The notes beneath the pieces were generated by a model, which was not told the origin of the DNA, searched no databases, and saw only the letters and a program-made list of their open reading frames with translations. The translations under genes and the position numbers were made by a program. Below are positions 20,303 through 54,118 of a stretch of 64,000 bases of DNA, one piece after another (the stretch's first letter is position 1; every line of letters starts with the position of its first letter). This DNA comes from Actinophytocola algeriensis (GTDB lineage Bacteria > Actinomycetota > Actinomycetes > Mycobacteriales > Pseudonocardiaceae), in contig NZ_JACHJQ010000014.1 of the NCBI RefSeq assembly GCF_014203735.1, positions 1 to 64,000 of the forward strand, read 5' to 3'.

Positions 20303-20365
20303 AGTTCTCAAGCCTTGCACGACCGGCGTAGGGCCGCGCTGAGCGGTGGGGCACAATCGGTGGCG

Positions 20366-22465: not shown

Positions 22466-25233
22466 CCGATCCCTTCGGCACCGCCGCGTTGCGGGAGTCG
22501 GTGCTCGGCTCGTGGCGGTCCTCGCCCACCCGCCTCCGCGAGGACACCAACGCCGAAGAGGACCTCGTCCTCGGCGGCTACCGCGACCGGCTGCTCATCG
22601 AGCTCGCCCAGAACGCCGCCGACGCCGCCGGCAGCGGCGGCACGCTCAAAGTGTCCCTTGTGGACGGCGAGCTGCGCGTTGCCAACACCGGTGAACCCCT
22701 TACGCGCCAAGGAGTTGAGGCCCTCGCCTCGCTCCGTGCCTCCGCCAAGCAACATGGCGTCGGCCGGTTCGGTGTCGGGTTCGCCGCCGTGCTCACGGTC
22801 TGCGACGCGCCCCGCATCGTCTCCACCACCGGCAGCGTCGCGTTCGACGTCGAGCGCACCCGCCGCGAAGCAGGCGCCGACCGCGCTCCCGTGCTCCGCC
22901 TGCCCTGGCCGACCGACGAAACCCCGCCCGACGGCTTCACCACCGAGGTCCGCCTGCCGCTCCGCGAGACCGTCGACCTCGACGAGTTCCGCGGTCAGGC
23001 CGGCGACATCCTCCTCGCCCTCGACGCGCTCACCCGCATCGAGATCGGCGACGACGTCTGGTGGCGCGACGGCGCCGACATCCACGGACCGGACGGCGTC
23101 ACCCGATGGGTCGTCGTGCGCGACCACGGCGAGTTGCCGTCGGATCCCGCACTCGGCGCCGAAGCGCGTCCGCAGTGGACGATCTGCTGGGCGCTCCAGG
23201 TGGACGGTGGCCCGCGACCACGGGACACGGATGTCCTCTACGCGCCCACGCCCACCGACGAGCGACTTTCCCTACCTGCCAGGCTGATCGCGAGCCTTCC
23301 CGTCGAACCGTCCCGTCGGCGGATCCGCCCGGGGGCCGCCACCGACCACGTGCTCGCCGCCGCCGCGCGCGCATACCCGCGCCTGCTTGACGAGCTGGCG
23401 CCCGAAGAGCGACCGAAAGTCGTGCCACTGCCGCGTTTTCCACTGTCCGAAGTGGATGAGAAGCTGCGCGACGGTGTGCTGGAACAGCTCCGCATATCGC
23501 CGTGGCTGCCGTCCGCGCTCGACGACAAGCCGCTCACCCCGGCGGAAGCGCGGCTGCTTCCCGTGCCCAGCAAGGAACTCGCCGAGTCCGTCGCACAGTA
23601 CATCCCGGGGCTGGTGCGCGCGGAGTTCGTGGAGCAGGCCGCCGCTCTTGCCGCGCTGGACGTGGTCCAGTTGCGACTGTCCGATGTAGTCGATGCGCTG
23701 ACCGGAATCATCCGTCCGCCAACGGAATGGCGCGAGCTGTACCAGGCGCTGGACAAAATCGTGGACAACGATCCGTCCGTGGTGGACGACCTCGGCGCAC
23801 TGCCGGTGCCACTCGCCGACGGACGCACCGTGCCCGGCCCGCGCGGCGTGCTCATCGCCGACCTCGATCTGTCCAGTATGGAGGGTGTGCACGTCGTGCA
23901 CCCCGACGCCGTGCACCCGCTGCTCGAACGGCTTGGCGCGCGACATGGTGGTGCGGAAGAACTTCTGGCCGCGATGGCCAGCGAGGTCGAGCACAGTCTC
24001 GAAGACGCCGAGTCCGGTCTGGACATCGGCGCGCTCGTGAACACGGTGCTGCGACTGGTGGCCGAGGCCGGAGTCCGCCCCGGTGACGAGCCGTGGCTCG
24101 GTGCGCTGGCACTCCGGGACGCGGACGGTGAACCCCGCCGCGCGGACGAACTCGCCCTCCCCGGCACGAAGTTCCTCACCGTCCTCGCCGAAGACTCACC
24201 CGTCGGTGTCCTCGCGGACGACATCACCGCGCAGTGGTCACCGCCCGTGCTCGCCGCGGTGGGTGTCCTGGACGGTTTCACGATCGTCGTCGACGAAGCG
24301 CCGGAAGGTCCCGACCACGACCTCGCCGACGAGGCCGACTGGTGGGACGACCAGCCGGAACCGCCGGCCAGGATGGAAGCGATCCGCGACCTGGACCTGG
24401 TCGCCGACGACGCGTGGCCGGCCGCGATCCGCCTGCTGGCAAGCGAGCCCGACACCTGGCGCGCGCTGCGCAGCGGTTACACAGCGTGGTGGATCGCGCA
24501 TCACGCACTGCTGGCCGGCGAACCACCGGCACACTGGCGCCTGCCGGCCGCGAGCGAACTGGCCGGCCTGTACGACACCGCACCGACCGACCTGGAACCA
24601 CATCTCCAGGAGCTGATGGGCGTCCGCGGGGAGCTGGCCGTGGAGTCCACAGAGGACGCCGAGGACCTGCTCGACCGCCTGGCGGACCCGACCAGGACGA
24701 TCACGCGAGGCACCATCCGGCGCGTGTACGTCGCACTGGCCGAGGCCGTCCGCGACGACGTGGTCGACCCGGCCGACCTGGACCCACCTCCGGAGGTCCG
24801 CACGGCGGACGGCGAGGTCACCGACAACGGTGCGGTGCTGGATGTCCCGTGGCTGGCCCCGGTGACGGACGGCTATGTGGCGATCGACGCCGACCTGGCC
24901 ACGCCGCTGGCGGAGCTGCTCGACATCCCACTCGCGTCGGAAGCGGCTCCGGCGGGACCGGACGGTGGCGACCCGGTGGCGTGGTCGGACCTGGGCGCGG
25001 TGGTGGACGCGTGCGACGTGATCGGCCTCCCGGTGCCGGACGGCGGCCCGATCATCCACGATGGACTGGAAGTCGCCGGGCGACGAGTGCCGTGGTGGGT
25101 CGAAGGCGACACGGTCCACTGCGAGGACTCGACGGCGGGGCTGGGCCGGGCGCTGGCGTGGGTGACCGACCGCTGGGAGGACCGCCACCTGCTGGCGGCA
25201 CTGCTGGAAGACCCGTCGAACAGCGACGCGTAG
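22462..25233 (+). CDS. GHKL (HSP90/sacsin-type) ATPase domain protein
   Basis: 923 residues from GTG 22462, overlapping the DUF3027 stop. The N-terminus has the GHKL fold: LLIELAQNAADAAG (N box with the catalytic E and N), LRVANTGEPLTRQG, and the glycine-rich GVGRFGVGFAAVLTVCD. Beyond about residue 200 there is no HSP90 middle domain; the remaining ~700 residues are mixed, with many acidic stretches. Database entries often call such proteins molecular chaperone Hsp90 or sacsin N-terminal ATPase-like. Coupling to DUF3027 suggests they work together. Cellular role unknown. Confidence 0.8.
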   Translation: MTDPFGTAALRESVLGSWRSSPTRLREDTNAEEDLVLGGYRDRLLIELAQNAADAAGSGGTLKVSLVDGELRVANTGEPLTRQGVEALASLRASAKQHGVGRFGVGFAAVLTVCDAPRIVSTTGSVAFDVERTRREAGADRAPVLRLPWPTDETPPDGFTTEVRLPLRETVDLDEFRGQAGDILLALDALTRIEIGDDVWWRDGADIHGPDGVTRWVVVRDHGELPSDPALGAEARPQWTICWALQVDGGPRPRDTDVLYAPTPTDERLSLPARLIASLPVEPSRRRIRPGAATDHVLAAAARAYPRLLDELAPEERPKVVPLPRFPLSEVDEKLRDGVLEQLRISPWLPSALDDKPLTPAEARLLPVPSKELAESVAQYIPGLVRAEFVEQAAALAALDVVQLRLSDVVDALTGIIRPPTEWRELYQALDKIVDNDPSVVDDLGALPVPLADGRTVPGPRGVLIADLDLSSMEGVHVVHPDAVHPLLERLGARHGGAEELLAAMASEVEHSLEDAESGLDIGALVNTVLRLVAEAGVRPGDEPWLGALALRDADGEPRRADELALPGTKFLTVLAEDSPVGVLADDITAQWSPPVLAAVGVLDGFTIVVDEAPEGPDHDLADEADWWDDQPEPPARMEAIRDLDLVADDAWPAAIRLLASEPDTWRALRSGYTAWWIAHHALLAGEPPAHWRLPAASELAGLYDTAPTDLEPHLQELMGVRGELAVESTEDAEDLLDRLADPTRTITRGTIRRVYVALAEAVRDDVVDPADLDPPPEVRTADGEVTDNGAVLDVPWLAPVTDGYVAIDADLATPLAELLDIPLASEAAPAGPDGGDPVAWSDLGAVVDACDVIGLPVPDGGPIIHDGLEVAGRRVPWWVEGDTVHCEDSTAGLGRALAWVTDRWEDRHLLAALLEDPSNSDA

Positions 25234-25296
25234 GCCTCCGGCCCCCGATTCCAGCCTAGCGAGCACCCCCGACACAGAACGCCGACGAAGGCCGAG

Positions 25297-25406
25297 TTGT
25301 CCACAGCACCATGAGTTGTCCACAGACGACCCACGATCACCCCGAAACGTAACCCCCACCTAGTAAGCTGGCATGGCGGGACGCCCCCGGGACAGGGTGG
25401 GGGTTG
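25297..25406 (+). repeat. DnaA-box repeat element, copy 1
   Basis: Two TTGTCCACA boxes (25297-25305, 25316-25324) are 19 bp apart. Exactly 39 bp after the second box begins the 43-bp core (25364-25406): TAAGCTGGCATGGCGGG, then the hairpin arms CCCCC and GGGGG at the end. The core differs from the other copies at only a few positions. Confidence 0.85.
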
Positions 25407-25512
25407 GGTAACGCGCGCGCGAGCCGTCGCGGGATGTGGGGGGCTGCGGAGGGATTCGCGGCGGAGCCGGGTTCTCGGTGCGGTACTTGAGGCTTTCGCC
25501 GGAATTCGCGAG

Positions 25513-25603
25513 TTGTCCACAGGCAAGATCGACAACGGCGCGAATGTCACCGCCCGCCGGTAGAATGGCAAGGCGGGACGCCCCCGGGATCGGGTGGGGG
25601 TTG
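25513..25603 (+). repeat. DnaA-box repeat element, copy 2
   Basis: One TTGTCCACA box (25513-25521), a 39-bp spacer, then the 43-bp core (25561-25603) starting TAGAATGGCAAGGCGGG. The first ~27 bases of the spacer are nearly identical to those of copy 3 (GGCAAGATCGACAACGGCG). Confidence 0.85.
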
Positions 25604-25722
25604 CAACGCGCGCGCGAGCCGCAGGTTGGTGGGGCTCTCGGGCGGCGTGGTGGAGCTTCGCGAGCAACCTGCCCGGACGTGGCGTGGACGACGTTCAGCG
25701 ACGTTCAGCGGCCGTCAGGCCG

Positions 25723-26010
25723 TCAGCGCAGGCGTTGGGCTCCTCGGCTGCCCCGGCGCGAGGCAGCGCGTTGCCAGGCCATGACCGGCACGCCGATCAG
25801 CCCCAGAGCCGTTCCCCACAGCGCGGTCCACACCCAGATCGGCGGGAACACCTCGAACCCGTAATGCCCCACCAGCAGCACGCACGTCAGCACGACCCAC
25901 AGGCCCGTCCCCACGTACACCAGCGGCGCCAGCGCCAGCAGCCGGTCGGGCAGCGGGGGAGGTGACTTCTGTGTTTCGATTCCCGGGTCGGGTTTCCCTA
26001 CGTCGGACAC
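25723..26010 (-). CDS. DUF2530 small membrane protein
   Basis: 95 residues from GTG 26010. A short polar N-terminus is followed by two hydrophobic helices (LVYVGTGLWVVLTCVLLVGH and IWVWTALWGTALGLIGVPVM) and a basic C-terminus that should stay in the cytoplasm. Matches the two-helix DUF2530 family and the position of Rv0879c. Divergent from the purine permease gene. No function is known. Confidence 0.82.
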   Translation of the reverse strand: MSDVGKPDPGIETQKSPPPLPDRLLALAPLVYVGTGLWVVLTCVLLVGHYGFEVFPPIWVWTALWGTALGLIGVPVMAWQRAASRRGSRGAQRLR

Positions 26011-26030
26011 ATGCGCGAGGCTACCGGGCC

Positions 26031-27479
26031 ATGGCAAACAGGACAGCCGCCCTCGATCGGTTCTTCAAGATCTCCGAGCGGGACTCCTCCGTCGGCCGGG
26101 AGGTCCGCGGTGGGGTCGTCACGTTCGTGACCATGGCGTACATCGTCGTGTTGAACCCGCTGATCATCGGATCCTTCGCCGACGATCCGGCGCACACGGA
26201 CAAGTTCGGCGGCTTCCTCCCGGTCGACCAGGTGGCCGCCGTCACGGCGCTGGTCGCCGGGGTCATGACGATCCTCTTCGGACTCGTCGCCAACTACCCG
26301 TTCGCCATGGCCACCGGTCTCGGCATCAACGCGTTCGTCGCCGTGTCGATCGCGCCGCAGATGTCCTGGCCCGCCGCCATGGGGCTCGTCCTCGTCAACG
26401 GTGTCATCGTCCTCATCCTCGTCGTCACCGGCGTCCGGACCGCCGTGTTCAACGCGGTCCCGCCGTCGCTCAAGGCCGCGATCGCCGTCGGCATCGGCCT
26501 GTTCATCACGCTCATCGGGCTCGTCGACGCCGGGTTCGTGCGCCGCCTGCCCGACGCGGCCGGGACCACCGTCCCCGTTGGACTCGGCATCAACGGCTCG
26601 ATCGCCTCCTGGCCGACGCTCGTGTTCGTCGTCGGGCTGGTCCTCACCGGCATCCTCGTCGCGCGGCGAATCAAGGGCGCGATCCTCATCGGCGTCATCG
26701 CGACGACCGTGTTCGCGATCATCCTCGAGGCCATCGTCGACGCCGGGCCGTCCATGGGCACCGACCCCAAGGGCTGGAACCTCGGCTACCCGGGCGTCCC
26801 CGACCAGGTCGTCGACACCCCGAACCTGTCGCTGCTCGGCGACGTGAACTTCGACGCCTGGATCCAGGTGCCGATCATCACCGCCGTCCTGCTGGTCTTC
26901 ACGCTCGTCCTCACCGACTTCTTCGACACCATCGGCACCATGACCGGCCTCGGCAAGGAGGCGAACCTCGTCGACAAGGACGGCAAGCTGCCCAACACCG
27001 GCAAGGCGCTGTTCGTCGACGGCCTCGGCGCGGTCGCGGGCGGTGCGGCGTCGTCGTCCTCCAACACGGTGTACATCGAGTCGGCGTCCGGCATCGCGGA
27101 GGGCGCGCGGACCGGGCTCGCCAACGTCGTCACCGGTCTGCTGTTCATCGCGGCGATGTTCTTCACGCCGCTGTACAACTCGGTGCCGGTCGAGGCGGCC
27201 GCGCCCGCGCTGGTGATCGTCGGCGTGCTGATGATGGCGCAGATCAAGGAGATCGACTTCGCCGACTTCACGATCGCGCTGCCCGCGTTCCTGACGATCG
27301 TGGTCATGCCGTTCACGTACTCGATCGCCAACGGCATCGGCGCCGGGTTCGTGAGCTACGTGCTGATCCGCGCCGCCACGGGCAAGATCCGCGGCATCCA
27401 CCCGCTCATGTGGATCGTCGCCGCGGCCTTCGTGGTTTACTTCGCGATCGGCCCAATTCGGGCGGCGTTCGGCGGCTGA
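26031..27479 (+). CDS. NCS2-family nucleobase (xanthine/guanine/hypoxanthine-type) permease
   Basis: 482 residues with about 12-14 membrane helices. The AzgA-like branch of the nucleobase-cation symporter-2 family is indicated by GVVTFVTMAYIVVLNPLI, ATGLGINAFVAVSIAP, LTDFFDTIGTMTGLGKEANL and SSSNTVYIESASGIAEGART. It imports purine bases with protons. The ATG at 26031 begins MANRTAALDRFF, usual for the family. It is followed at short distance by the MarR regulator gene, but the latter has its own promoter-like sequence. Confidence 0.92.
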   Translation: MANRTAALDRFFKISERDSSVGREVRGGVVTFVTMAYIVVLNPLIIGSFADDPAHTDKFGGFLPVDQVAAVTALVAGVMTILFGLVANYPFAMATGLGINAFVAVSIAPQMSWPAAMGLVLVNGVIVLILVVTGVRTAVFNAVPPSLKAAIAVGIGLFITLIGLVDAGFVRRLPDAAGTTVPVGLGINGSIASWPTLVFVVGLVLTGILVARRIKGAILIGVIATTVFAIILEAIVDAGPSMGTDPKGWNLGYPGVPDQVVDTPNLSLLGDVNFDAWIQVPIITAVLLVFTLVLTDFFDTIGTMTGLGKEANLVDKDGKLPNTGKALFVDGLGAVAGGAASSSSNTVYIESASGIAEGARTGLANVVTGLLFIAAMFFTPLYNSVPVEAAAPALVIVGVLMMAQIKEIDFADFTIALPAFLTIVVMPFTYSIANGIGAGFVSYVLIRAATGKIRGIHPLMWIVAAAFVVYFAIGPIRAAFGG

Positions 27480-27525
27480 GCCCGGGCGCAGGCGGATGTT
27501 GAGTGACTGGGGTCAACTCGTGAGG

Positions 27526-27537
27526 TATGCTAACGAT
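27526..27537 (+). promoter_or_regulatory. Putative -10 element for the MarR gene (leaderless)
   Basis: TATGCT at 27526-27531 fits TANNNT, with 6 bases before the GTG at 27538; no ribosome-binding site is present. Confidence 0.5.
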
Positions 27538-27984
27538 GTGTCGAACAAGGAGCTAGACGTAGCCGAGAGCTCCCTGACCAGCCGGTTACGGCTGGCGGTA
27601 GTGCGGCTCAATCGCAGGCTCCGCGCCCAGCGGACCAGCTCCTCGATCACGCTCACCCAGCTGTCAGCACTGTTCTGCCTGTACAAATGTGGCCCCCTCA
27701 CCCCAGGTGAGCTCGCGGCCAAGGAGGTTGTCCAACCCCCGTCGATGACCAGGGTGATCGCTGCTCTCGAGGAACTCGGCTACGTCAGCCGTCGACCGCA
27801 TCCCAGTGACGGCCGGCAGGCCATCGTAGAAATCACCGAGGAGGGGAGCGCGCACATCCGAGCGGACATCTCCGCGCGCGAGGCCTGGCTGGACAAGCGG
27901 CTCGCGGAACTCACCGAGGCGGAACGGGAACTGCTCTCCCGCGCGGCGGAGATCATCGACAGGATGGCGAGCCAACAGGATTAG
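27538..27984 (+). CDS. MarR-family transcriptional regulator (Rv0880-like)
   Basis: 148 residues from GTG 27538, close to the mycobacterial relative's length. The winged helix is typical: TLTQLSALFCLYKCGPLTPG, ELAAKEVVQPPSMTRVIAAL, and the wing RRPHPSDGRQAIVEITEEG. MarR proteins are usually ligand-responsive repressors of an adjacent efflux gene; here the MFS gene overlaps its stop by one base, which makes that transporter the likely target together with itself. Confidence 0.92.
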   Translation: MSNKELDVAESSLTSRLRLAVVRLNRRLRAQRTSSSITLTQLSALFCLYKCGPLTPGELAAKEVVQPPSMTRVIAALEELGYVSRRPHPSDGRQAIVEITEEGSAHIRADISAREAWLDKRLAELTEAERELLSRAAEIIDRMASQQD

Positions 27985-29348
27985 TGGCAGAAAAGAGAGA
28001 ACTGACAACCGATTCGACAACATCTCGAGCCGGACTCGCCGAGGACTCGAAGAAACCCGCCGAACATCGCAGCATGTTGGCGGCGCTCCGGGTACGGAAC
28101 TACCGGCTCTTCGCATCCGGGCAGATCGTCTCGAACGTCGGCACCTGGATGCAACGCATCGCACAGGACTGGCTCGTGCTCGAGCTGTCCGGCTACGACC
28201 CCGTCGCGCTCGGGGTCGCGGCGTCGCTGCAGTTCCTGCCGACGCTGTTCCTGACGCTGTGGGCCGGGGTGCTGGCCGACCGCATCGACAAGCGCAAGCT
28301 GCTGATGGTCGTCCAGGCCGGCATGGCGCTGTGTGCGCTGGCGCTGGGGCTGCTCGACGTCGGCGGGATCGTGCAGCTGTGGCACGTGTACCTGCTGTGC
28401 CTGGTCTTCGGCGTGTTCACCGCGTTCGACCCGCCGGTGCGGCAGAGCTTCGTCGGCGAGATGGTCGGCCGCGAGCACCTGGCGAACGCCGTCGCGCTGA
28501 ACTCGTCGACGTTCAACCTGGCCAGGGTCGTCGGCCCGGCGATCGCGGGTCTGATGATCGTCTGGACCGGCACGGGCTGGGTGTTCCTGGTGAACGCGGT
28601 CACGACGCTGGCGGTGATCTACGGGCTGTTCCGCATGAACCCGGCGGAACTACACCGGACGGCGGTGACCACGTCGCGGCGCGGCCAGCTGATGGCGGGA
28701 CTGCGGTACGTGCGAGGTCGGCCCGACATCATCGCCGTGCTGGTGCTGGTGTTCTGCGTGAGCACGTTCGCGTTCACGTTCTTCACGACCCTGGCGATCG
28801 CGGCGGCGAACGTGTTCCACCGCGATGCCGACGGCTACGGCCTGTTGTCCACGCTGCTGGCGGTGGGCAGTTTCGCCGGCGCGCTGCTGGCCGTGCGGCG
28901 GAGCACGCGTCGCAAGCCGGGCCTGGGCCTGCTCGTCGGGGCGGGTTTCCTGTTCGGGTTGTTCGAGGTCATCGCGGGTCTGATGCCGACATACCTGGCG
29001 TTCGGGCTGGCGCTGATCCCGTGCGGCCTGGCGATGATGACCTTCATGAACACGGCGAACAGCACGATCCAGCTGTCGACGGCGCCGGAGATGCGGGGCC
29101 GCGTGATGGCGCTGTACATGCTGGTGTTCATCGGCGGCAACCCGGTCGGCGCGCCCATGACGGGCTGGATGGCCGCGGAGTTCGGCGGCCGGTCCCCGTT
29201 CATCATCGGCGGGGCGGTCGCCGTGCTGTCGACGGTGGTGTGCGGCTGGGTCCTCGCACGTCGCGGCGGCATTCAGGTCCGCTCGCGCCTGCCGTGGGTA
29301 CGAAGGCCACTGGTGGCTCGAACACCGGAGCTTGCGCACGTTGATTAA
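27984..29348 (+). CDS. MFS efflux transporter
   Basis: 454 residues from GTG 27984, overlapping the MarR stop by one base. About 12 membrane helices follow a polar N-terminus; MFS motifs include LRVRNYRLFASGQIVSNVGT, GVLADRIDKRKLLM (motif A) and MRGRVMALYMLVFIGGNPVG. It belongs to the EntS/DHA3-like group that exports small molecules, drugs or siderophores. Coupling to MarR points to drug or metabolite efflux. An iron-box sequence overlaps the stop codon but lies downstream, so it is more likely to act on what follows. Confidence 0.9.
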   Translation: MAEKRELTTDSTTSRAGLAEDSKKPAEHRSMLAALRVRNYRLFASGQIVSNVGTWMQRIAQDWLVLELSGYDPVALGVAASLQFLPTLFLTLWAGVLADRIDKRKLLMVVQAGMALCALALGLLDVGGIVQLWHVYLLCLVFGVFTAFDPPVRQSFVGEMVGREHLANAVALNSSTFNLARVVGPAIAGLMIVWTGTGWVFLVNAVTTLAVIYGLFRMNPAELHRTAVTTSRRGQLMAGLRYVRGRPDIIAVLVLVFCVSTFAFTFFTTLAIAAANVFHRDADGYGLLSTLLAVGSFAGALLAVRRSTRRKPGLGLLVGAGFLFGLFEVIAGLMPTYLAFGLALIPCGLAMMTFMNTANSTIQLSTAPEMRGRVMALYMLVFIGGNPVGAPMTGWMAAEFGGRSPFIIGGAVAVLSTVVCGWVLARRGGIQVRSRLPWVRRPLVARTPELAHVD

Positions 29349-29363
29349 GTTAGGCTAACCTTA
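29345..29363 (+). promoter_or_regulatory. Iron box (IdeR/DmdR-type)
   Basis: TTAAGTTAGGCTAACCTTA is a 19-bp near-palindrome that differs from the consensus TTAGGTTAGGCTAACCTAA at two positions. DtxR-family iron repressors bind this sequence. TAGGCT inside it is also a TANNNT -10 hexamer, as in many iron-regulated promoters. The next annotated plus-strand gene starts about 2 kb away. Confidence 0.7.
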
Positions 29364-29365
29364 GC

Positions 29366-29462
29366 TCGTCGCTTCGTGGTGGGAGCGGCAGTCAGTTCGG
29401 GAACAGCGAGACCCCCACTCCGGTTCGGCAGACGGCACTGCTCGGAGTGGGGGTCTCGTCTA
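29366..29462 (+). ncRNA. Candidate iron-regulated small RNA
   Basis: The iron box and its embedded -10 would start a plus-strand transcript near 29363-29366. The strong hairpin at 29407-29458 would end it, giving about 95 nt. No gene is encoded; the only small open frame (from GTG 29373) has no ribosome-binding site. Mycobacteria have an IdeR-controlled small RNA (MrsI), but at a different locus. Alternatively the hairpin just terminates the MFS transcript and the iron box is fortuitous. Confidence 0.35.
29407..29458 (+). terminator. Strong terminator hairpin
   Basis: 16-bp perfect stem: CGAGACCCCCACTCCG at 29407-29422 and its complement at 29443-29458, loop 20 nt. Lies 58 bases after the MFS stop. 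Confidence 0.8.
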
Positions 29463-29512
29463 TGAATGGCCAGGTCAAACACGTCGCCCTGAACCCAGGA
29501 CTGTCACGTGGG

Positions 29513-29603
29513 CAGCCCCCACCCGATCCCGGGGGCACCCCGCCTTGCCAGTCTACCGGGTGGGGCCGACATTCTCGCCGTTGTCGATCTTGCCTGTGGA
29601 TAA
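29513..29603 (-). repeat. DnaA-box repeat element, copy 3 (reverse)
   Basis: On the minus strand: TTATCCACA (29603-29595, the E. coli-type variant of the box), a 39-bp spacer, then the 43-bp core (29555-29513) beginning TAGACTGGCAAGGCGGG. It is the only copy in reverse orientation and with a TTATCCACA box. Confidence 0.85.
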
Positions 29604-29698
29604 CTTCCTGGTTCGGGGAAATGTCTCAAGTTCGGTCACCGAACCTGAGTGGAGGTCCGCCGACGACGGCGATGACCAGGGCTGTTGTGAGCTACTTC

Positions 29699-31195
29699 TC
29701 AGGTGACCGCCCACGTGTGGACGGGCGCGTTGGTGTCCGACAGCTCCACGTAGCGGTGCAGCATGCCGACCAGTGCGGCGTCGCGGTCCAGGCCGCGGGC
29801 CTCCAGGGCGGCGACCGTCTCGCGTTGCCACGTCGAGCCCGTTCGTTGTGCGAGGCAGCGTTGCTCGATCACACCCAGGTAGCGTTCCCGCACCGCGTCC
29901 GACACGCCGCACTCGCGCAGCCCGTCGTGGGCCATCGGCAGCAGGCGGCGCAGCACCAGCTCGTCCGGTGGGACCCAGCCGATGCCCGGCCAGTACAGCT
30001 GCGCGTCGAACGCGTGCCGGGCGCCCGCGTACAGGTTCTCCTCCGCCGCCTGGAACGACATCTGTGTCCACACAGGACGCTCCGCGGTCGCCAGTGCGCG
30101 CTGCGCGCCGTAGAAGAACGCCGCGTTCGCGATCAGGTCGACCACCGTCGGGCCCGCGGGCAGTACCCGGTTCTCGACCCGCAGGTGTGGAATGCCGTCG
30201 ACGACGTCGTACACCGGGCGGTTCCAGCGCCAGATGGTGCCGTTGTGCAACCTCAGTTCCGCGAGTTTCGGGGCGCGGCCCGCGTTGAGCGCCTCGATCG
30301 GGTCCTCGTCGTCGATTTCCGGGAGCAGGCCCGGGAAATAGCGCACGTTTTCCTCGAACAGGTCGAAGATGGACGTGATCCACCGCTCCCCGAACCACAC
30401 GCGCGGGCGCACGCCCTGGTTCTTCAACTCCTGCGGGCGGGTGTCAGTTGCCTGCTGGAAAAGGGGAATCCGGGTCTCGTGCCAGAGTGCCTTGCGGAGA
30501 AGGAAAGGCGAGTTGGCGGCAATTGCCACCTGAACGCCGGCCAGGCACTGCGCCGCGTTCCAGTGGGACGCGAACTCCTCCGGCGGCACCTGGAGGTGCA
30601 GCTGCGCGGACGTGCACGCCGCCTCCGGCAGGATCGAGTCCGCCGAGCTGCGCAACCGTTCGCCCCGCTGACCCGGGATAGCCGGGCCTTCCATGGACAG
30701 CACCATGTCCTCGCCGCGCGCGGCGAAGATCTGGTCGTTCAGCCTGGAATACCTGGCATTGGTCGACAACCAGCGGGCCTTGAAGTGCTCCTCCCGCAAC
30801 GTCGGCAGCGTGCCGATCATCACGAGCGCCGCGCCGGCGTCCTGCGCCTTGACGTTCGCGTCCGTGAGCGACACGCGCAGTTCAGTCTCCAGCTCGCGGG
30901 CCTGGTCGCCGGACAGCGGCCGCGGCAGCACGTTCAGCTCCAGGTTGTGCTGACCCAACTCCGTGGTGAACGACGGGTCGTCGAGCTTCTCCAGCACCAC
31001 GGTGTTGGCCATCGCGGGCTGCAGTAAGTCGTCCACCAGGTTCAGCTCGACCTCGAGCCCGATCGTCGGTGGCGAGGTGGAGAAGCCGCCCTCCGTGAGC
31101 ATTCTCGCGAGGGCGTCCAGACAGCGCTGGACCTTCAAACGGTAATGCTGGCGAGCCGACCGATCGGACGTGCCGGTCGCGACATCCTGTCCCAT
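29699..31195 (-). CDS. Glutamate-cysteine ligase-like (GCS2 family) protein
   Basis: About 498 residues from ATG 31195. The ATP-grasp-like GCS2 fold is suggested by TIGLEVELNLVDDLLQP (metal-binding glutamates), TTELGQHNLELNVLPRPL, TSAQLHLQVPPEEF, and LRVENRVLPAGPTVVDL. True ligases join glutamate and cysteine; the long actinobacterial subgroup is not well characterised and could ligate another amine or acid. The adjacent SpoU gene is divergent. No thiol-pathway gene is nearby, so the substrate cannot be inferred from context. Confidence 0.78.
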   Translation of the reverse strand: MGQDVATGTSDRSARQHYRLKVQRCLDALARMLTEGGFSTSPPTIGLEVELNLVDDLLQPAMANTVVLEKLDDPSFTTELGQHNLELNVLPRPLSGDQARELETELRVSLTDANVKAQDAGAALVMIGTLPTLREEHFKARWLSTNARYSRLNDQIFAARGEDMVLSMEGPAIPGQRGERLRSSADSILPEAACTSAQLHLQVPPEEFASHWNAAQCLAGVQVAIAANSPFLLRKALWHETRIPLFQQATDTRPQELKNQGVRPRVWFGERWITSIFDLFEENVRYFPGLLPEIDDEDPIEALNAGRAPKLAELRLHNGTIWRWNRPVYDVVDGIPHLRVENRVLPAGPTVVDLIANAAFFYGAQRALATAERPVWTQMSFQAAEENLYAGARHAFDAQLYWPGIGWVPPDELVLRRLLPMAHDGLRECGVSDAVRERYLGVIEQRCLAQRTGSTWQRETVAALEARGLDRDAALVGMLHRYVELSDTNAPVHTWAVT

Positions 31196-31248
31196 TCCGC
31201 CCCTCCCAGCCGATCCGAGCAGTCGGCGTGTGCGCGGGAAGTTCAACC

Positions 31249-31344
31249 GTTACACACGGTGGAAGCTGTTACTAGGGGCCAAAAAGGTGCATCGTTACAG
31301 TGTGAATGTTACGCAGAGCAAGGCATGTGTGTGGCTCACGTAAC
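31249..31344. promoter_or_regulatory. Cluster of GTTAC motifs in a divergent promoter region
   Basis: GTTAC occurs at 31249, 31268, 31294 and 31308, and its inverse GTAAC at 31340, all within 96 bases between the GCS2 ligase and SpoU genes. The density is higher than expected in such a GC-rich region, but spacing is uneven (19, 26, 14). Possible operator half-sites. Confidence 0.35.
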
Positions 31345-31346
31345 AT

Positions 31347-32132
31347 ATGCGCGTGATCGAGGTGACCGACCCGGACGACCCGCGGCTCGACGAGTACCGC
31401 TTTCTCCGCACTGCCGACCGCAGACCTGACCGGCCCGGCGGGCTGGGGCTGGTGATCGCCGAGGGGACGATCGCCGTGAGCCGCATGCTCGCCTCACGGT
31501 ACCCGGTGCGGTCGATGCTCGGCGTGCGGCGCAAGCTCGAGACCCTGCCGCCGGTCGACGCGCCGGTGTACGTGACGACCGCCGAGGTGATGGCCGAGGT
31601 GATCGGCTTCCACCTGAACCGCGGCGTGCTCGCGATGGCCGACCGGCCCGAACCGCTGTCCGTTTCGTCCGTGATAGACGGTGCCCGCAGGCTGGTCGTG
31701 CTGGAGGGCGTCGGCGACCACGAGAACCTCGGCGCGCTGTTCCGCAACGCGGCCGGGCTCGGCGTCGACGGCGTGCTGCTCGGCGCCGGCTGCAGCGACC
31801 CGCTGTACCGGCGCAGCGTCCGTGTCTCGATGGGACACGTGCTCGCCGTGCCCTTCACGACGCTGTCGCCGTGGCCGGACGGGCTGAAGCTGTTGCAGGA
31901 CAACGGCTTCACTGTGATGGCACTCGCGCCAGCTGGTGCGGCTGACCTGTCGTCGGTCACGCCGCCCGTGAAGGCGGCGGTGATGCTCGGGTCGGAAGGC
32001 CCCGGGCTCACGGCGGAGGCGATCGCGGCGGCCGACATGGCGGTGAAGATCCCCATGGTGGGCGGGGTCGACTCACTCAATGTGGCGACAGCGGGTGCGG
32101 TCGCCTTCTACGCTCTCGGCCTGGGCCGGTAG
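31347..32132 (+). CDS. TrmH/SpoU-family RNA 2'-O-methyltransferase (Rv0881-like)
   Basis: 261 residues from ATG 31347. The substrate-binding N-terminal domain is followed by a SPOUT knot domain with the three SpoU motifs: ENLGALFRNAAGLGVDGVLL, LGSEGPGLT and IPMVGGVDSLNVATA. It uses SAM to methylate a ribose in rRNA or tRNA; the target nucleotide is unknown. TAACAT at 31341-31346 abuts the ATG, so if it is the -10, the real start could be GTG at 31353 (two residues shorter) on a leaderless transcript. Confidence 0.92.
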   Translation: MRVIEVTDPDDPRLDEYRFLRTADRRPDRPGGLGLVIAEGTIAVSRMLASRYPVRSMLGVRRKLETLPPVDAPVYVTTAEVMAEVIGFHLNRGVLAMADRPEPLSVSSVIDGARRLVVLEGVGDHENLGALFRNAAGLGVDGVLLGAGCSDPLYRRSVRVSMGHVLAVPFTTLSPWPDGLKLLQDNGFTVMALAPAGAADLSSVTPPVKAAVMLGSEGPGLTAEAIAAADMAVKIPMVGGVDSLNVATAGAVAFYALGLGR

Positions 32133-32141
32133 TTTCGGAAG

Positions 32142-32753
32142 GTGTCGATGTCGGGGATACAGCTGCGCGCGAACGGCGAGCGAGCGGTGCTGGTCGGTGA
32201 CGACGGTGCCGGTGGCGTCGACGGTGCCGCGGTCACCGAGCCGGGTCGCCTGCCGCTGGGCACCGAGCTGACCGACGCGCTGCACGAGTGGGCGAAGGTC
32301 GCGGCCGCGGTGGGCCGCGCCGAGCCCGGCACGGCCGCGGGTGCGGTCGTGTCACGGCGCGGGCTGCAGCTGGCCGGGCGCGTGGCGACGGCGCTGGGTG
32401 TGGTCGTCCGGTACGTGGATCCCTTGTCGGGCACCGAGTCCGTGGTCGAGCCGGTGCGGGCGCCCGCACCGCCACCCGCGCCACCTCGGCCGCCGGAGCC
32501 GGTGCCGTGGCTGACCGGGCTGACCGTGTCGGCGGCGAGCGCGGTGCTGGTGGTCGTGACGGTGGTGACGCTGGCGGTCACGCTGGCGGAGACGTACTCG
32601 CTGCTGGCGCTCGCGTCGAACGCGGTGGTGACGGCGGGGCTGCTGCCGTCGCTGTGGCTCATCCACCGGCAGCCGATCTGGCGCTGGGTCGCGTACGGGG
32701 TGGCGGTGGGCATCGGCGTCGCGTGGCTGGCGCTGCCGTTCGTGCTCTTCTAG
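32142..32753 (+). CDS. DUF2537-type membrane protein
   Basis: 203 residues. A soluble N-terminal half (residues 1-110) ends in a proline-rich linker (APAPPPAPPRPPEPVPW), followed by about three hydrophobic segments (ASAVLVVVTVVTLAVTLAET, LLALASNAVVTAGLLPSLWL, YGVAVGIGVAWLALPFVLF). Starts 9 bases after the SpoU gene and corresponds in position to Rv0882, which is only ~94 residues, so the N-terminal half is an addition. Probably co-transcribed with the methyltransferase. Function unknown. Confidence 0.75.
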   Translation: MSMSGIQLRANGERAVLVGDDGAGGVDGAAVTEPGRLPLGTELTDALHEWAKVAAAVGRAEPGTAAGAVVSRRGLQLAGRVATALGVVVRYVDPLSGTESVVEPVRAPAPPPAPPRPPEPVPWLTGLTVSAASAVLVVVTVVTLAVTLAETYSLLALASNAVVTAGLLPSLWLIHRQPIWRWVAYGVAVGIGVAWLALPFVLF

Positions 32754-32781
32754 GCGGAGGTCGTGCTTCGCCCAGGACCTG

Positions 32782-33195
32782 CTAGTCCACCGGCCAGGTC
32801 TTCAGCGTGAGGTCGAGGCGTCCGTAGGCGTCGTCGAACCACTCGTCGGGCAGGGGGACGGTGACCGTCACGGTCGTCGCCGCGCCGCCGTCGTCGTCCT
32901 TGATCGTGACGAGCGCCTGGTCCCCGGCGCGTTCGATGATCATCGACGCGCCGCGGGTGTGCTCGCGCCAGCCGATGTCGTGGCCTGCGTCGAGCCCGTC
33001 GAGCGCGTCGCGCCACTCCCAGAGGTCCGCCGGGACGACCGTGGCCCTCAGGGTGCCGCGCACGAACGGGGTGTCGACCAGGAACTCGCCGTTCAGCACC
33101 CGGGTCGACACGACTTCCTGCGCGCCGGTGATGCGGAGGACGACGCTGTTGCCGTGCCCTTCGAAGCGGATCAGATCGATGGGTTCATCAGCCAC
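32782..33195 (-). CDS. DUF5959-like hypothetical protein
   Basis: 137 residues from GTG 33195. Predicted all-beta, beginning DEPIDLIRFEGHGNSVVLRI, with WEWRDALDGLDAGHDIGWRE in the middle and DEWFDDAYGRLDLTLKTWP at the end. It resembles small actinomycete proteins of the DUF5959 type, though I am not certain of the number. No signal peptide or membrane segment. Convergent with the DUF2537 gene. Function unknown. Confidence 0.65.
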   Translation of the reverse strand: MADEPIDLIRFEGHGNSVVLRITGAQEVVSTRVLNGEFLVDTPFVRGTLRATVVPADLWEWRDALDGLDAGHDIGWREHTRGASMIIERAGDQALVTIKDDDGGAATTVTVTVPLPDEWFDDAYGRLDLTLKTWPVD

Positions 33196-33300
33196 GTGCG
33201 CTCCTTTTGCCCTGTTCGAGGCGCCGCCTCCGGCCCCGGTCGACCATTGTCTCAGGGAAGACCGACATCGGGCCGGGGGATGTGAGCCGTGCGAGACAGG

Positions 33301-33448
33301 TTGTCCACAACCTGTCCAGTTGTCCACAACCTGTCCAGTTGTCCACAACCTGTCCAGTTGTCCACAACCGCGCCCCTCCCCCTCGCTTTTTCCGCCACCC
33401 CCTGATAGACTGGCAAGGCGGGACGCCCCCGGGACAGGGTGGGGGTTG
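33301..33448 (+). repeat. DnaA-box repeat element, copy 4, with a four-box tandem array
   Basis: TTGTCCACA occurs at 33301, 33320, 33339 and 33358, an exact 19-bp period; the unit is TTGTCCACAACCTGTCCAG. From the end of the last box there are 39 bp to the 43-bp core (33406-33448), which starts TAGACTGGCAAGGCGGG. The spacer itself is pyrimidine-rich and unlike that of the other copies. Confidence 0.9.
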
Positions 33449-33596
33449 CGTTCCGGGCGGTGCGCCGTTCTGGTGGGCTGATCGCGGTGGGGTCGGCCTG
33501 GTCAGTCTGCGTTTCTTCGCCTGGTGGCTGCGTTGAACGTGCCGCCTCCGGACTCCAGGTGCCAGCCCCGGCTCGACGAGCGCACGGACCACGCGA

Positions 33597-33640
33597 GGGC
33601 CGGACACGCGGCGGATCTCCGCCCGCCACGTGTCCGGCCC
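33597..33640 (-). terminator. Terminator of the ABC exporter operon
   Basis: 12-bp outer stem GGGCCGGACACG / CGTGTCCGGCCC with further pairing inside, 20 bases beyond the stop of the minus-strand ABC gene. Confidence 0.6.
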
Positions 33641-33660
33641 TGCGCGTGACCGCTCCCGCA

Positions 33661-35496
33661 TCAGGCCAGCGACTCCAGCCACGTGCGGTGCAGTGCCGCG
33701 AACCGGCCGCCCCTGCCCTCGATCAGTTCCACCGGTGAACCGTCCTCCACGATCCGGCCGCCCTCGACCACCAGTACGCGGTCGGCGATCAGGACCGTCG
33801 ACAGGCGGTGCGCGATGATCAGCGCCGTCCGGTCCGCCAGTACCGACTCCAGCGCGCGTTGCACCGCCCGCTCCGTCGGCACGTCCAGGCTCGACGTCGC
33901 CTCGTCCAGCACCAGCACCGACGGGTCCGCCAGGAACGCCCGCGCGAACGCCACCATCTGCCGCTGGCCCGCGGACAGCCTGCCGCCGCGTTTGCGCACG
34001 TCCGTGTCGTAGCCGTCGGGCAGTGCCGCGATGAACTCGTGTGCGCCCACCGCTGCCGCCGCCGACTCCACCTCCGCGCGCGACGCCGCGGGCCTGCCCA
34101 GCGCGATGTTGTCCGCCACCGAGCCCGCGAACAGGAAGTTCTCCTGCGTCACCGTGACCACCTCGTGCCGCAGTTCGGCGTCCGCCACCTCGCGCAGGGA
34201 CACGCCGTCGAGTCGCACCGCGCCCGTCGACGGGTCGTAGAACCGGCCCACCAGCTTCGCCAGCGTCGACTTGCCCGCGCCCGTCGCACCCACCAGCGCG
34301 ACCGTCTGACCAGCCGGGATCTGCAGGTCAAAGCGCGGGAGCACCACCGGTGTGGTGGGGGAGTAGCGGAACTCGACCTGGTCGAAGTCGATCGCCCGGC
34401 CCGTGTCGCGGGACGGCAGCGGCCGAGGCGAGGACGGCTCGACCACCATCGGCTCCTCCTCCAGCACACCCGAGATCTTCTCCAGTGCCGCGATCGCCGA
34501 CGTGTACGAGTTCGCGAACATCGCCAGCTCGTCCAGCGGGTCGTAGAACCGGCGCAGGTACAGGGTGAACGCCGTCAGCACGCCAAGCGCGAGGTCGCCG
34601 TCGACGACCCTGACCGCGCCGATCGCCAGCACGGTCGCCAGCGTCAGGTTGCCGACCCACCGCACGGTCATCGTGAAGCGCGCGACCACGATCAGCGCTT
34701 CCTTGTTGGCCGCGCGGAAGCGGTCGTTCAGCCCCGCCATGATCGTCTCGTTGCGGTCCTCGCGGCGGAACGCCTGCACCGCGCGCATGCCGTTCATGGT
34801 CTCCACGAACTGCACGATGATCTTCGCGATGGCGCCGCGGGTGTCGCGGTACGCGTGCCGCGACCGGAGGTAGAACCAGCGGGTCACCCAGATCAGCGGG
34901 ATCAGGCCTGCCAGCACGATCAGCGCCAGTGGCACGTCCATCACCAGCAGCATGATCGCGATGCCGACCACCGAAAGGACCGCCGTGAGCAGGCCGTCGA
35001 GGCCGTCCTCCAGCAGGTCGTGCAGGGAGTCGATGTCGCTGGTCATGCGGGAGATGACCTTGCCGGACGTGTACTTCTCGTGGAACGAGATCGACAACCG
35101 CTGGGCGTGCTCGAACACCCGCTCCCGCAGGTCCAGCAGCACGTCCTGCCCGAACCGCCCCGAGACCTTCAGGAACGCGAACCGCATGCCCGCCGCGCCG
35201 AGGCCCGACACCAGGTACGCACCGACGCACCACGCCAGCGCGGTCGTGTCACCGTCGATCGCGTCCGGGATGCCGGTGTCGATCGCGACCGCGATCACCA
35301 GCGGGCCGACCAGCGTCAGCACGTTCTCCAGCACGACCAGCCCGAACGCCAGCAGCGCGGTGGCCAGGCGCGGGCGCACCAGCGAGGCCAGCAGCCGCCG
35401 CGACCTGGCCTGCAGGCGGCTGCCGACCAGCGCGTCGATCTCCTCGTTGTCCTCCGCGGCCACCCCGCGCCACTGTTCCTCGGTCGGCGAGCTCAC
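33661..35496 (-). CDS. Heterodimeric ABC exporter subunit with canonical catalytic site
   Basis: 611 residues from GTG 35496, with GAGGAG upstream. Six membrane helices (residues ~40-330) precede the ATPase: Walker A VGATGAGKSTLAKL, Q-loop TQENFLFAG, signature RLSAGQRQMVAFARA, Walker B VLVLDEATSSLD with the catalytic glutamate, and H-loop IIAHRLST. The signature has A for the second G. With its neighbour it forms a TM287/288-type exporter for lipids, peptides or drugs. The asymmetry places the competent ATP site at this subunit's Walker motifs and the partner's LSGGQ. Confidence 0.92.
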   Translation of the reverse strand: MSSPTEEQWRGVAAEDNEEIDALVGSRLQARSRRLLASLVRPRLATALLAFGLVVLENVLTLVGPLVIAVAIDTGIPDAIDGDTTALAWCVGAYLVSGLGAAGMRFAFLKVSGRFGQDVLLDLRERVFEHAQRLSISFHEKYTSGKVISRMTSDIDSLHDLLEDGLDGLLTAVLSVVGIAIMLLVMDVPLALIVLAGLIPLIWVTRWFYLRSRHAYRDTRGAIAKIIVQFVETMNGMRAVQAFRREDRNETIMAGLNDRFRAANKEALIVVARFTMTVRWVGNLTLATVLAIGAVRVVDGDLALGVLTAFTLYLRRFYDPLDELAMFANSYTSAIAALEKISGVLEEEPMVVEPSSPRPLPSRDTGRAIDFDQVEFRYSPTTPVVLPRFDLQIPAGQTVALVGATGAGKSTLAKLVGRFYDPSTGAVRLDGVSLREVADAELRHEVVTVTQENFLFAGSVADNIALGRPAASRAEVESAAAAVGAHEFIAALPDGYDTDVRKRGGRLSAGQRQMVAFARAFLADPSVLVLDEATSSLDVPTERAVQRALESVLADRTALIIAHRLSTVLIADRVLVVEGGRIVEDGSPVELIEGRGGRFAALHRTWLESLA

Positions 35497-35503
35497 GACC
35501 GCT

Positions 35504-35569
35504 CCTCGCAGGCTCCGAGCGGCCGCTCGCGGCCGCCCTGTGTCCAATGGTTCGCTCCGCAAGCTCCGC
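35504..35569 (-). repeat. 66-bp dispersed repeat, copy B (see 2491-2556)
   Basis: Related to 2491-2556. It fills the gap between the two ABC genes and supplies the GAGG of the downstream gene's ribosome-binding site. The centre GCGGCCGCTCGCGGCCGC is highly self-complementary. Confidence 0.7.
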
Positions 35570-37354: not shown

Positions 37355-37494
37355 GATCTCCCCACGGTGCCGCTCTCGACCGTATGCGAGACGCCCCGGC
37401 GCGGCATCCGTTTTTCGCGGAGGAACACTGAGGCTGTCGGCTCAGAGTGCGACCTCCAGTGCGGTGGAGGTCAAGACTGCGGGATCATTCGGAC

Positions 37495-37740
37495 ATGACG
37501 CGACCGGAAGAGGTGCGCTTCCTGCGCACCCAGTCGACGATGGCGTACTCCGAAGGTCGGCTGCTCGCGCTGCGGGAGGGGGCGTTGCACGTCCTCGCCC
37601 CGGACGGCTGGACCCGTCTGCGCACCGAACGCCCCCGTGGGACGACGTGGCTCACCCGTGAGCAGGCCGAGGACTGGTGCGAGCGGGAAGGGTGGCCACT
37701 GCAGCTGCTGAATCAGGTGCCGCACGCGGGCCGGGTCTGA
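37495..37740 (+). CDS. Small hypothetical protein
   Basis: 81 residues from ATG 37495: TRPEEVRFLRTQSTMAYSEG at the start, and WLTREQAEDWCEREGWP near the end. No signal or membrane segment. It is divergent from the ABC exporter and stands alone before the convergent sepH. A small hairpin CCTCCA-N6-TGGAGG lies at 37453-37470 in its upstream region. Not assigned to a family. Confidence 0.6.
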   Translation: MTRPEEVRFLRTQSTMAYSEGRLLALREGALHVLAPDGWTRLRTERPRGTTWLTREQAEDWCEREGWPLQLLNQVPHAGRV

Positions 37741-37830
37741 GTGGTCGACAGCGGAGGCCCGCCCCGGGAACGGTCAGTGCCCTGAAAGACGCTTGCAGGG
37801 CATCGAGCCAGGCAGGGTGCCGCTGGTCGA

Positions 37831-37859
37831 CACGCGAGCCCGGTCAGCGGGCCCGCGTG
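37831..37859 (-). terminator. Terminator of sepH
   Basis: ACGCGAGCCCG pairs with CGGGCCCGCGT (one mismatch) with a 5-nt loop, 10 bases after the sepH stop. A second hairpin GCCCTG / CAGGGC lies further at 37785-37801. Confidence 0.65.
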
Positions 37860-37868
37860 CCGACTGTG

Positions 37869-53924: not shown

Positions 53925-54035
53925 GGGGACATCGTGTCGCGCGGGCGGGGTGTGCCGGGACGTCCGCGCGACTGATTCCGCGTGTCAACCGAACGATGGA
54001 CAGGCTGTCAGCCGTGTGTCGCGGTGGCGATGCCC

Positions 54036-54108
54036 GAAGGACCCCTTCGTAACGCTCGGTGCGATGAAGGACCCCTTCGTAACGCCCGGCGTGATGAAGG
54101 GCCCCTTC
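54036..54108. repeat. Tandem array of the 30-bp palindromic unit, array 2
   Basis: Units at 54036 and 54066 (GAAGGACCCCTTCGTAACGC then ~10 more bases) and a terminal palindrome GAAGGGCCCCTTC at 54096-54108. Same 30-bp unit as in 48532-48666. It begins 10 bases beyond the citA stop, so here it may work as a multi-hairpin terminator. Confidence 0.85.
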
Positions 54109-54118
54109 ATGACACGAG

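Follow-up and report, generated by a model that had tools for sequence, protein, structure and literature searches.

Background

REP/REPIN, MITE and mobile-promoter repeats occur in many intergenic copies, are biased towards convergent gene ends and contain GC-rich hairpins. DnaA-type boxes outside oriC form datA, DARS and DnaA-box clusters. The elements described here, named A and B, resemble the former in copy number, convergent bias and hairpins, and the latter in their boxes. However, the conserved part of A and B is a promoter with a transcript start common to single-copy genes, and no ends or target duplications were found in comparisons with empty sites; relative to datA and DARS, they have promoter geometry and a conserved transcript start, and no oriC-linked placement was detected in three complete genomes. 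To our knowledge, none of the dispersed bacterial repeats known so far is a promoter of such precise construction, and searches of one open-licence collection of papers gave no description of such elements.

A further likeness is to DnaA acting as a transcription factor from boxes upstream of promoters (PMC8203912). Compared with the account given there, the elements add a strict direct-repeat pair, a helically phased distance, a set of DNA-uptake genes and about 170 non-coding copies. The mycobacterial DNA-damage promoter RecA-NDp (PafBC/ClgR) is described by the motif tTGTCRgtg-N8-TannnT (PMC5656591, PMC6789036, PMC8223512), which is present at the right offset in B elements and in one of the coding promoters, that of recA. 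Relative to these descriptions, only the elements considered here have phased upstream DnaA-type boxes, dispersed non-coding copies and a conserved core, and A mostly lacks the motif. Finally, the gene set overlaps that of the com promoters of Micrococcus luteus, with comEA/EC and a cpaB-like gene in common (PMC12849477, PMC8467076). The upstream signal and the regulatory cascade of com are still to be identified according to a 2026 paper (PMC12849477), and DnaA is not named in the main text of either publication.

Results

The preliminary description reported four copies of an intergenic element in the window (the whole analysed stretch of 64,000 nucleotides), and all four were confirmed, at 25297-25406, 25513-25603, 29513-29603 (reverse strand) and 33301-33448. 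The box TTRTCCACA has eight exact matches in the 64-kb window, as compared with 0.24 expected, and all eight are inside these copies. The sequence TANNNTGGCAWGGCGGG has four exact matches and two more at two mismatches. The number of boxes varies (two in copy 1, one each in copies 2 and 3, four in copy 4), and the distance from the end of the last box to the TANNNT hexamer is 39 bp in each copy.

Boxes were located by exact search and cores by the core pattern. Copy 1 has two boxes TTGTCCACA on the forward strand, at 25297..25305 and 25316..25324 (19-bp period), followed by the candidate -10 box TAAGCT (25364-25369) and the A core (25364..25406). The predicted transcript start, about 25376 on the same strand, was placed by analogy with the start codons of the coding members considered below. 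Reverse-strand B arms lie upstream of copies 1 and 4. The former, TGTCGGGG-N8-TAGGCT-GG-AATCGGGGGCCGGAGG (25235..25274), is divergent and adjoins the stop codon of a frame ending at 25233. Copy 2 consists of a single forward box TTGTCCACA (25513..25521) and TAGAAT with the A core (25561..25603). Copy 3, on the reverse strand, has a single box TTATCCACA (29595..29603) and TAGACT (29555-29550) with the A core (29513..29555); TGTCGGCC-N8 stands ahead of the -10 box. In copy 4, four forward boxes TTGTCCACA start at 33301, 33320, 33339 and 33358 (33301..33366, 19-bp period), and TAGACT with the A core is at 33406..33448. Its divergent B arm, on the reverse strand (33230..33267), is degenerate, TGTCGGTC-N8-GACAAT-GG-TCGACCGGGGCCGG.

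In the whole genome, that of a soil actinomycete (Actinophytocola, Pseudonocardiaceae), we found 54 A elements and 120 matches of the sister element B, together about 170 non-coding copies. The 40-base A core pattern gave 53 matches at up to three mismatches, and the reversed control pattern none; the 54th, diverged copy (C1:322492) came from a shorter core pattern with 51 matches, four of them unrelated. At least three additional A-like copies (L205, L208, L221) have a more diverged core. The reversed control for B also gave no matches. The genome contains 108 box pairs; one tally of 57 pairs counts three sites twice at overlapping loci.

The usual layout is two TTRTCCACA boxes at a 19-bp period, a gap of 38-40 bp, the TANNNT hexamer and a conserved G-rich transcript start. 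After removal of two sequence duplicates, 52 A copies were aligned. An exact box ends 38 or 39 bp from the -10 box in 51 of them, the remaining one having TAATCCACA at 39. Thus the invariant gap of 39 bp proposed initially holds in the window only; over the genome 38 and 39 bp are equally common (of 53 A arms, 26 have each value and one lacks an exact box). On the other hand, the possibility that the core occurs mostly without the box is excluded for A, as 52 of the 53 arms have an exact box. A second box stands exactly 19 bp farther upstream in 46 of the 52 aligned copies at up to one mismatch, and the period is 19 bp in all 44 arms with two exact boxes. The T, the A and the final T of the hexamer are invariant (52/52). 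This, together with start codons at the predicted transcript start in coding members, supports the promoter reading of the preliminary description. The spacers have diverged within the genome; the core and the boxes have not.

The first 100 of the 120 B matches were located individually, and the geometry of B was derived from 77 arms of available sequence. In 58 arms the box is no more than 3 bp from the main position, and in 14 it is displaced (27/28 or 48-50 bp); two arms have it at 58 bp and three lack an exact box. The distances cluster near 28, 39 and 49 bp, whole helical turns apart. The 14 displaced arms are phased at 10.5 bp with R=0.94, in a test that excluded the two arms at 58 bp (the second-box position), the three without an exact box and those up to 4 bp from the main position, and in which arms belonging to the same divergent pair use common boxes and are not independent. 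Since the distance shifts by whole turns, the protein bound to the box must face the promoter. The drift of the spacers against persistent boxes and cores, and the helical shifts in B, support the fixed-geometry assembly with RNA polymerase suggested at the outset. B-B pairs stand in inverted arrangement.

At the offset of the DNA-damage motif, GTC is present in all 71 distinct B spacers and TGTC in 56 of them. TGTC occurs at this offset in only eight of 52 A spacers, and so A is not generally a PafBC-type promoter.

The same layout was found upstream of comEA-comEC, yraN-comM and recA, of a cpaB-like gene and of a small number of other genes. The background is 33 positive windows among 796, each of 420 bp. 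Among 24 genomes of the family, 18 have a box pair ahead of comEA, including 12 of the 18 from other genera; outside Pseudonocardiaceae the count is one of six. In each of the 19 paired comEA promoters the second box is followed, after exactly 52 or 53 bp, by a start codon in frame and open to comEA. Upstream of yraN, 22 of the 24 family genomes have an exact box and 20 have a pair; of these 20 paired promoters only six, five of them within the genus, have an in-frame start codon at 51-53 bp. For recA the counts are 16 and 10 of 23 family genomes, and a pair was seen in six of 18 outside the genus. The recA promoter also carries the PafBC/ClgR-type motif, which by inspection is absent from the comEA promoters. 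Some of the other genes behind box pairs (M23 peptidase, DUF4192, unassigned) have no obvious role in DNA uptake. Since the layout is the same upstream of comEA-comEC, yraN-comM, recA and the cpaB-like gene, A and B belong, on sequence grounds, to a promoter family common to genes of DNA uptake and recombination, of which they form the dispersed non-coding branch.

We consider it probable that the copies are small units of non-coding transcription, activated from their boxes. In this model the boxes, as a rule two with centres near -56 and -75, would act from a single side of the helix to activate RNA polymerase at TANNNT, and the transcript would begin 6-8 nt past the -10 box, where the conserved G-rich hairpin core lies. 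This arrangement would also drive the coding members; B and recA carry the PafBC/ClgR-type motif in addition. The geometry, the helical phasing, the link to leaderless competence genes, the conservation across genera and the constraint at four orthologous sites all support the model at the level of sequence. Against it stand the modest counts of recA pairs and of in-frame yraN starts, and the narrow range of the A core pattern itself, which at up to three mismatches is present in only four of 60 relatives, all of them Actinophytocola.

The orthologous sites bear also on a different reading, that A and B are mobile or self-copying intergenic repeats of the REP, MITE or mobile-promoter type, which carry a host promoter by chance and persist where harmless, between convergent genes. 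The number of matches per genome varies from 0 to 58. Closely related copies exist within genomes (L011 and L012 are 90% identical over 217 bp, and spacers are repeated in G259 and G202). Among sites picked by eye from a site listing, and thus not a census, five carry the element in one species but not in another (filled and empty sites), and four are filled in both. The placement of the elements is also as expected for such repeats: A is found between convergent genes in 24 cases, tandem in 23, divergent in three and unclear in four (n=54), and B in 38, 26 and three, respectively (n=67). Gene context came from a home-made codon-model predictor, whose background for B was computed on the window itself together with the A loci; the four unclear A copies are inside predicted genes.

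However, at the four A sites filled in both species the boxes are identical in 67 of 72 positions (93%) and the core in 152 of 172 (88%), as compared with 64 of 153 in the spacer, and the flanks are randomised (37/160 and 41/160, 23-26%), which is unexpected for dead copies. The same layout precedes single-copy competence genes in several genera, spacers diverge within the genome while cores and boxes do not, and the five comparisons with empty sites gave neither clean ends nor target duplications, the intergenic flanks not being alignable by eye. Gene conversion between copies could help to keep boxes and cores alike at orthologous sites. A mobile-repeat component is possible, and a mobile repeat as the whole explanation is unlikely. 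The non-coding branch of the promoter family appears to be under selection between genes.

The protein reading the boxes is probably DnaA. The box TTRTCCACA is the DnaA-box consensus, TTATCCACA (PMC8203912), except that its third base may be G or A. In three family genomes, G000, G224 and G213, dnaA is flanked on either side by exact boxes (4, 4 and 3 in 8 kb). We know of no binder of TTRTCCACA other than DnaA. An alternative is that another regulator, perhaps a competence activator, recognises direct repeats at an 18-19 bp period. Indeed, the strict period and promoter distance resemble those of a dedicated activator, and a screen for com expression in M. luteus gave mutations in a helix-turn-helix gene and the adjacent cpaB-like gene (PMC8467076). 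Nevertheless, the match of all nine bases to the DnaA-box consensus and the boxes flanking dnaA make us doubt this alternative.

A G-quadruplex or a strong RNA fold was considered as the cause of core conservation. In comparison with mononucleotide shuffles (ViennaRNA with the quadruplex option), the folding of the cores is only slightly better, z ranging from -0.7 to -2.7 in nine A cores and being +0.5 and -1.4 in two B cores. Given these z-scores and mixed winners, neither is claimed. Rfam covariance models applied to positions 20000-38000 (E<=5) gave three sub-threshold matches, none of them on an element. The core was also rejected as the start region of a downstream gene: A and B are mostly not upstream of a correctly oriented gene, there is little conservation past about +60, and the next gene is opposite in 36 of the 50 A copies outside predicted genes. 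Termination of the upstream gene was rejected as well, as tandem orientations are balanced (11 same-same, 12 opposite-opposite).

A related suggestion is that the elements separate convergent genes as insulators or as terminators working in both directions, with outward promoters and GC hairpins that would block read-through from both sides. The B core ends 1-14 bp from the facing stop codon in 15 of 38 convergent cases, the end of the A box is often a few bases from a stop codon, and two of five inspected empty sites have another hairpin-like repeat. However, no T tract follows the A core, which typically ends in GGGGGTTG or GGGGGCTG, tandem A sites are about as common as convergent ones, and boxes and helical phasing would be needless. 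Thus this suggestion seems improbable.

The preliminary description had also raised clustering of copies by distance from oriC, and this was not borne out: in three complete family genomes distances to dnaA do not differ from uniform (KS p=0.22, 0.74 and 0.56; pooled p=0.36 for 36 copies). By eye, the copy listings show no clear rule relating orientation to replication direction. The density of A is uneven among the unordered contigs, with none on C2 (1.32 Mb), 13 per Mb on C3, which carries dnaA, and higher values on C9, C11 and C14. This unevenness and the sheer number of box pairs would suit sites that titrate DnaA or organise the chromosome, in the manner of datA or of the box clusters near oriC. 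However, titration does not require that a -10 box stand at a fixed distance or that the transcript start be conserved and, as the distances do not depart from uniform, we regard this reading as very unlikely.

Discussion

Within the favoured model of box-activated transcription units, the boxes would activate rather than repress, and induction would presumably follow replication or DNA stress. As for the A and B transcripts, our best guess is that they are short RNAs with structure, or else antisense starts lying between convergent genes, and that they are fired along with the uptake genes. In its fullest form the model is distinctly more tentative: DnaA may be the direct activator of the competence and recombination regulon of Pseudonocardiaceae through phased -56/-75 pairs, linking replication stress to DNA uptake, and the A and B copies may be new dispersed non-coding promoters, fired genome-wide with this regulon from between convergent genes and making short G-rich structured RNAs.

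Little is known of how high-GC Gram-positive bacteria switch on DNA uptake, M. luteus being the studied actinomycete. A conserved promoter sign common to comEA-comEC, yraN-comM, recA and the cpaB-like gene provides a candidate regulator (DnaA), a candidate link to stress and exact positions that can be mutated. A promoter design standing before genes of DNA uptake and recombination suggests how such bacteria may turn on DNA uptake.

Anatomy and copy number of the A element

The four proposed copies of the A element in the window (25297-25406, 25513-25603, 29513-29603 on the reverse strand, and 33301-33448) were all confirmed. They contain all eight exact matches in the window to the nonamer TTRTCCACA, read from its sequence as a DnaA box, where 0.24 would be expected. 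The genome-wide search that the preliminary description proposed (9.73 Mb, 23 contigs) extended the set well beyond these four: the 40-base core pattern, with at most three mismatches, has 53 matches and its reversed control none. A shorter pattern (51 hits, four of them unrelated) added one diverged copy, giving 54.

Two copies were left out of the alignment as duplicates. In all 52 aligned copies the distance from the end of the box to the TANNNT hexamer, the candidate -10 box, is 38 or 39 bp; thus the geometry is fixed, as had been suggested, but the gap is not always 39 bp. The spacer sequence is variable at this near-constant distance throughout the aligned set, also as suggested from the window. 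The box at this position is exact in 51 copies, the remaining one being TAATCCACA, and a second box (at most one mismatch) lies exactly 19 bp further upstream in 46 of the 52. Every copy has the hexamer's first T, its A and its final T, and the three middle bases vary. The core, from -10 to +43, is nearly invariant among the copies; the spacer is not. In most pairs of copies homology runs from close to the first box as far as roughly +43 to +66, and the flanks outside it are unshared, except where one region contains two copies. The copy at 33301-33448 has four boxes in a 19-bp register with an identical 10-base gap repeated (33301-33366), an arrangement suggestive of a recent duplication in place. 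Where the first box is absent, a CCRYTCGCG-like motif often occupies approximately its place (L108, L114, L120 and L131 in A. xanthii, L107 and L125 in another species).

The gene context of the copies is 24 convergent, 23 tandem, 3 divergent and 4 unclear (n=54). Their density is uneven between contigs of the A. algeriensis genome, and the clustering by distance from oriC that was to be checked was not borne out in three complete family genomes.

Distribution and constraint

Three genomes of the genus contain loci identical to named Actinophytocola records; of 31 named stretches, one is in Kibdelosporangium and all others are in Actinophytocola. The core pattern (at most three mismatches) was found in four of 60 relatives, all Actinophytocola. 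A looser pattern, box-N36..41-TANNNTGGC, occurs in all six genomes of the genus (58, 13, 19, 4, 7 and 20 matches; one reversed-control match in total). Across the family, 57 of 297 genomes have it (seven control matches), some matches being ordinary promoters (e.g. L135, L139, L145). The core varies by species and typically retains GGGG-loop-CCCC followed by G runs. A hairpin-plus-G-run rule fits 60 of the 71 distinct sequences following the -10 box in the retrieved loci; the other 11 are eight near-variants and three unrelated sequences (L145, L153, L154).

Four A. oryzae sites are orthologous to A. algeriensis sites, the DNA on either side being 78-86% identical. Identity is 67 of 72 positions in the boxes and 152 of 172 in the core, against 41 of 160 and 37 of 160 in the 40-base upstream and downstream flanks; thus the boxes and core have been held while neighbouring sequence was randomised. 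The inter-box gap matches at 21 of 40 positions and the spacer at 64 of 153. Gene conversion among copies could contribute to this conservation. In five other site comparisons, the element is present in one species and absent from the other.

Window positions 54002-54119, orthologous to an A. gossypii A site (L098), instead contain a GAAGGACCCCTTC-type hairpin in direct repeat, which may be a further repeat family scattered among convergent gene ends. Several genomes of one genus (g67) each have about one instance of a different promoter, box-N40-TAGTATGGCCGCACCG (L135, L139, L144). At L145, a box-N38-TAGGCT promoter directly precedes a frame beginning MRRIMGTEVEYG, which resembles a Pup ligase or deamidase. 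Loci of this type are linked to pafBC in mycobacteria.

The sister element B

The genome contains 108 box pairs with a gap of 5-30 bp (reversed control, none), about 60% of which lack an A core, among the 100 matches listed. In 60 extracted regions, most such pairs belong to a sister element, B. It has the same box pair, then after about 38-41 bp TGTCGGTG-N8-TANNNT-GG followed by CCGGGGGCCGGAGGCC, and its pattern (at most two mismatches) has 120 matches in the genome and none in the control. B often forms a divergent pair around one common box pair: among 100 of the 120 B matches and the 54 A copies, 22 B-B and three A-B divergent neighbours lie within 400 bp, the B-B spacing being 96-127 bp in 19 of the 22 (106-107 bp in 12). 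The context is 38 convergent, 26 tandem and 3 divergent (n=67; background gene pairs, 53, 146 and 69, respectively), and in 15 of the 38 convergent cases the core ends 1-14 bp from the stop codon at which it points.

For 77 B arms (a -10 box with its core), the nearest exact box is in the same orientation at 38-41 bp (31 arms), 50 bp (2), 28 bp (1) or 58 bp (2), or inverted at 35-38 bp (27), 48-49 bp (9) or 27 bp (2); three arms have none. Fourteen arms lie away from the main position, and their offsets are in helix phase (R=0.94 at 10.5 bp), the significance being indicative only, as arms with common boxes are not independent. Judged from sequence, this is the behaviour of an activator that would need to be confined to one face of the DNA.

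Genes behind box pairs

Scanning for box pairs whose gap is 9-11 bp yielded 57 pairs at 54 distinct sites; a core resembling that of A or B is present at 39 of them and absent from 15. In nine of the 15, ATG or GTG occurs 51-53 bp after the second box, as for a putative leaderless message whose 5' end would be 6-8 nt beyond the -10 box; one of the nine (L190) opens a frame that is not gene-like. The genes at the other eight are recA, a DUF4192 gene, an M23 peptidase gene, two genes without family assignment, comEA with comEC behind it (TIGR00426 and TIGR00361, both over cut-off), yraN (UPF0102) with a short frame of the YifB/ComM type behind it (over cut-off for Pfam ChlI and Mg_chelatase, below it for TIGR00368), and a cpaB-like gene (Pfam SAF over cut-off, TIGR03177 below). 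Some members, among the DUF4192, M23 peptidase and unassigned genes, have no evident tie to uptake or repair. A box pair is likewise present ahead of the tad-pilus gene ssd (TIGR03815 over cut-off), which has a T2SSE ATPase downstream of it; its start is 93 bp away and so departs from the exact layout.

The YifB/ComM frame behind yraN is short-looking (372 aa). Next to it, where dprA might be expected, comes a frame for a UvrD-like helicase (L283:75-2720). Leaderless-looking box-pair promoters precede two seemingly related proteins (L200:787-1449, L224:498-1448) for which neither Pfam nor NCBIfam gave a match at E<=0.001.

Thirty loci were examined per gene, of 40 (comEA), 40 (yraN) and 45 (recA) listed places; the comEA set comprises 24 family loci (six within the genus, including A. 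algeriensis) and six from other families. Upstream of comEA, an exact forward box occurs within 1 kb in 21 of 24 family loci, and a box pair in 18, or in 12 of 18 once the genus is set aside; among the loci from other families 1 of 6 has a pair. Each of the 19 paired promoters has its start codon 52 or 53 bp beyond the second box, in frame and open through the comEA match; the -10 box is mostly TAGCGT. For yraN, an exact box is present within 420 bp in 22 of 24 family genomes (16 of 18 outside the genus; other families, 1 of 6) and a box pair in 20 (15 of 18 outside the genus; other families, 3 of 6, with mismatches). Only six of these 20 have the exact start-codon distance, five of them within the genus; the others presumably have a leader. 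For recA, the exact box is found in 16 of 23 family genomes (11 of 18 outside the genus; other families, 1 of 7) and the pair in 10 (6 of 18; 2 of 7). As background, an exact box turns up in 33 of 796 windows of 420 bp taken from these loci on the downstream side of the starts.

Possible regulatory mechanism

B elements and the recA promoter additionally contain tTGTCRgtg-N8-TannnT, in passages of PMC5656591 the motif of a LexA-independent DNA-damage promoter, which excerpts from mycobacterial studies link to PafBC and ClgR (PMC5656591, PMC6789036, PMC8223512). Unlike B, A elements mostly lack this motif (present in 8 of 52). A RecA-independent stress response of Bacillus subtilis has been tied to DnaA (PMC8203912).

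The titles, abstracts and passages searched describe neither the A and B elements nor any competence promoter of Actinomycetota with DnaA boxes. The word DnaA is absent from the retrieved portions of PMC12849477 and PMC8467076, and the former describes the cascade behind competence in Micrococcus luteus as still to be found. Another study reportedly treats the Flp pilus and transformation in M. luteus (PMC4322843).

Core folding scores are weak. Candidate roles for the A and B transcripts are short structured RNAs, antisense starts and collision-based insulation. Based on promoter layout, we propose that DnaA, or another reader of the nine-mer, would occupy the boxes at -56 and -75 and touch RNA polymerase, and that this contact probably fires leaderless competence messages and, in parallel, the A and B transcripts.
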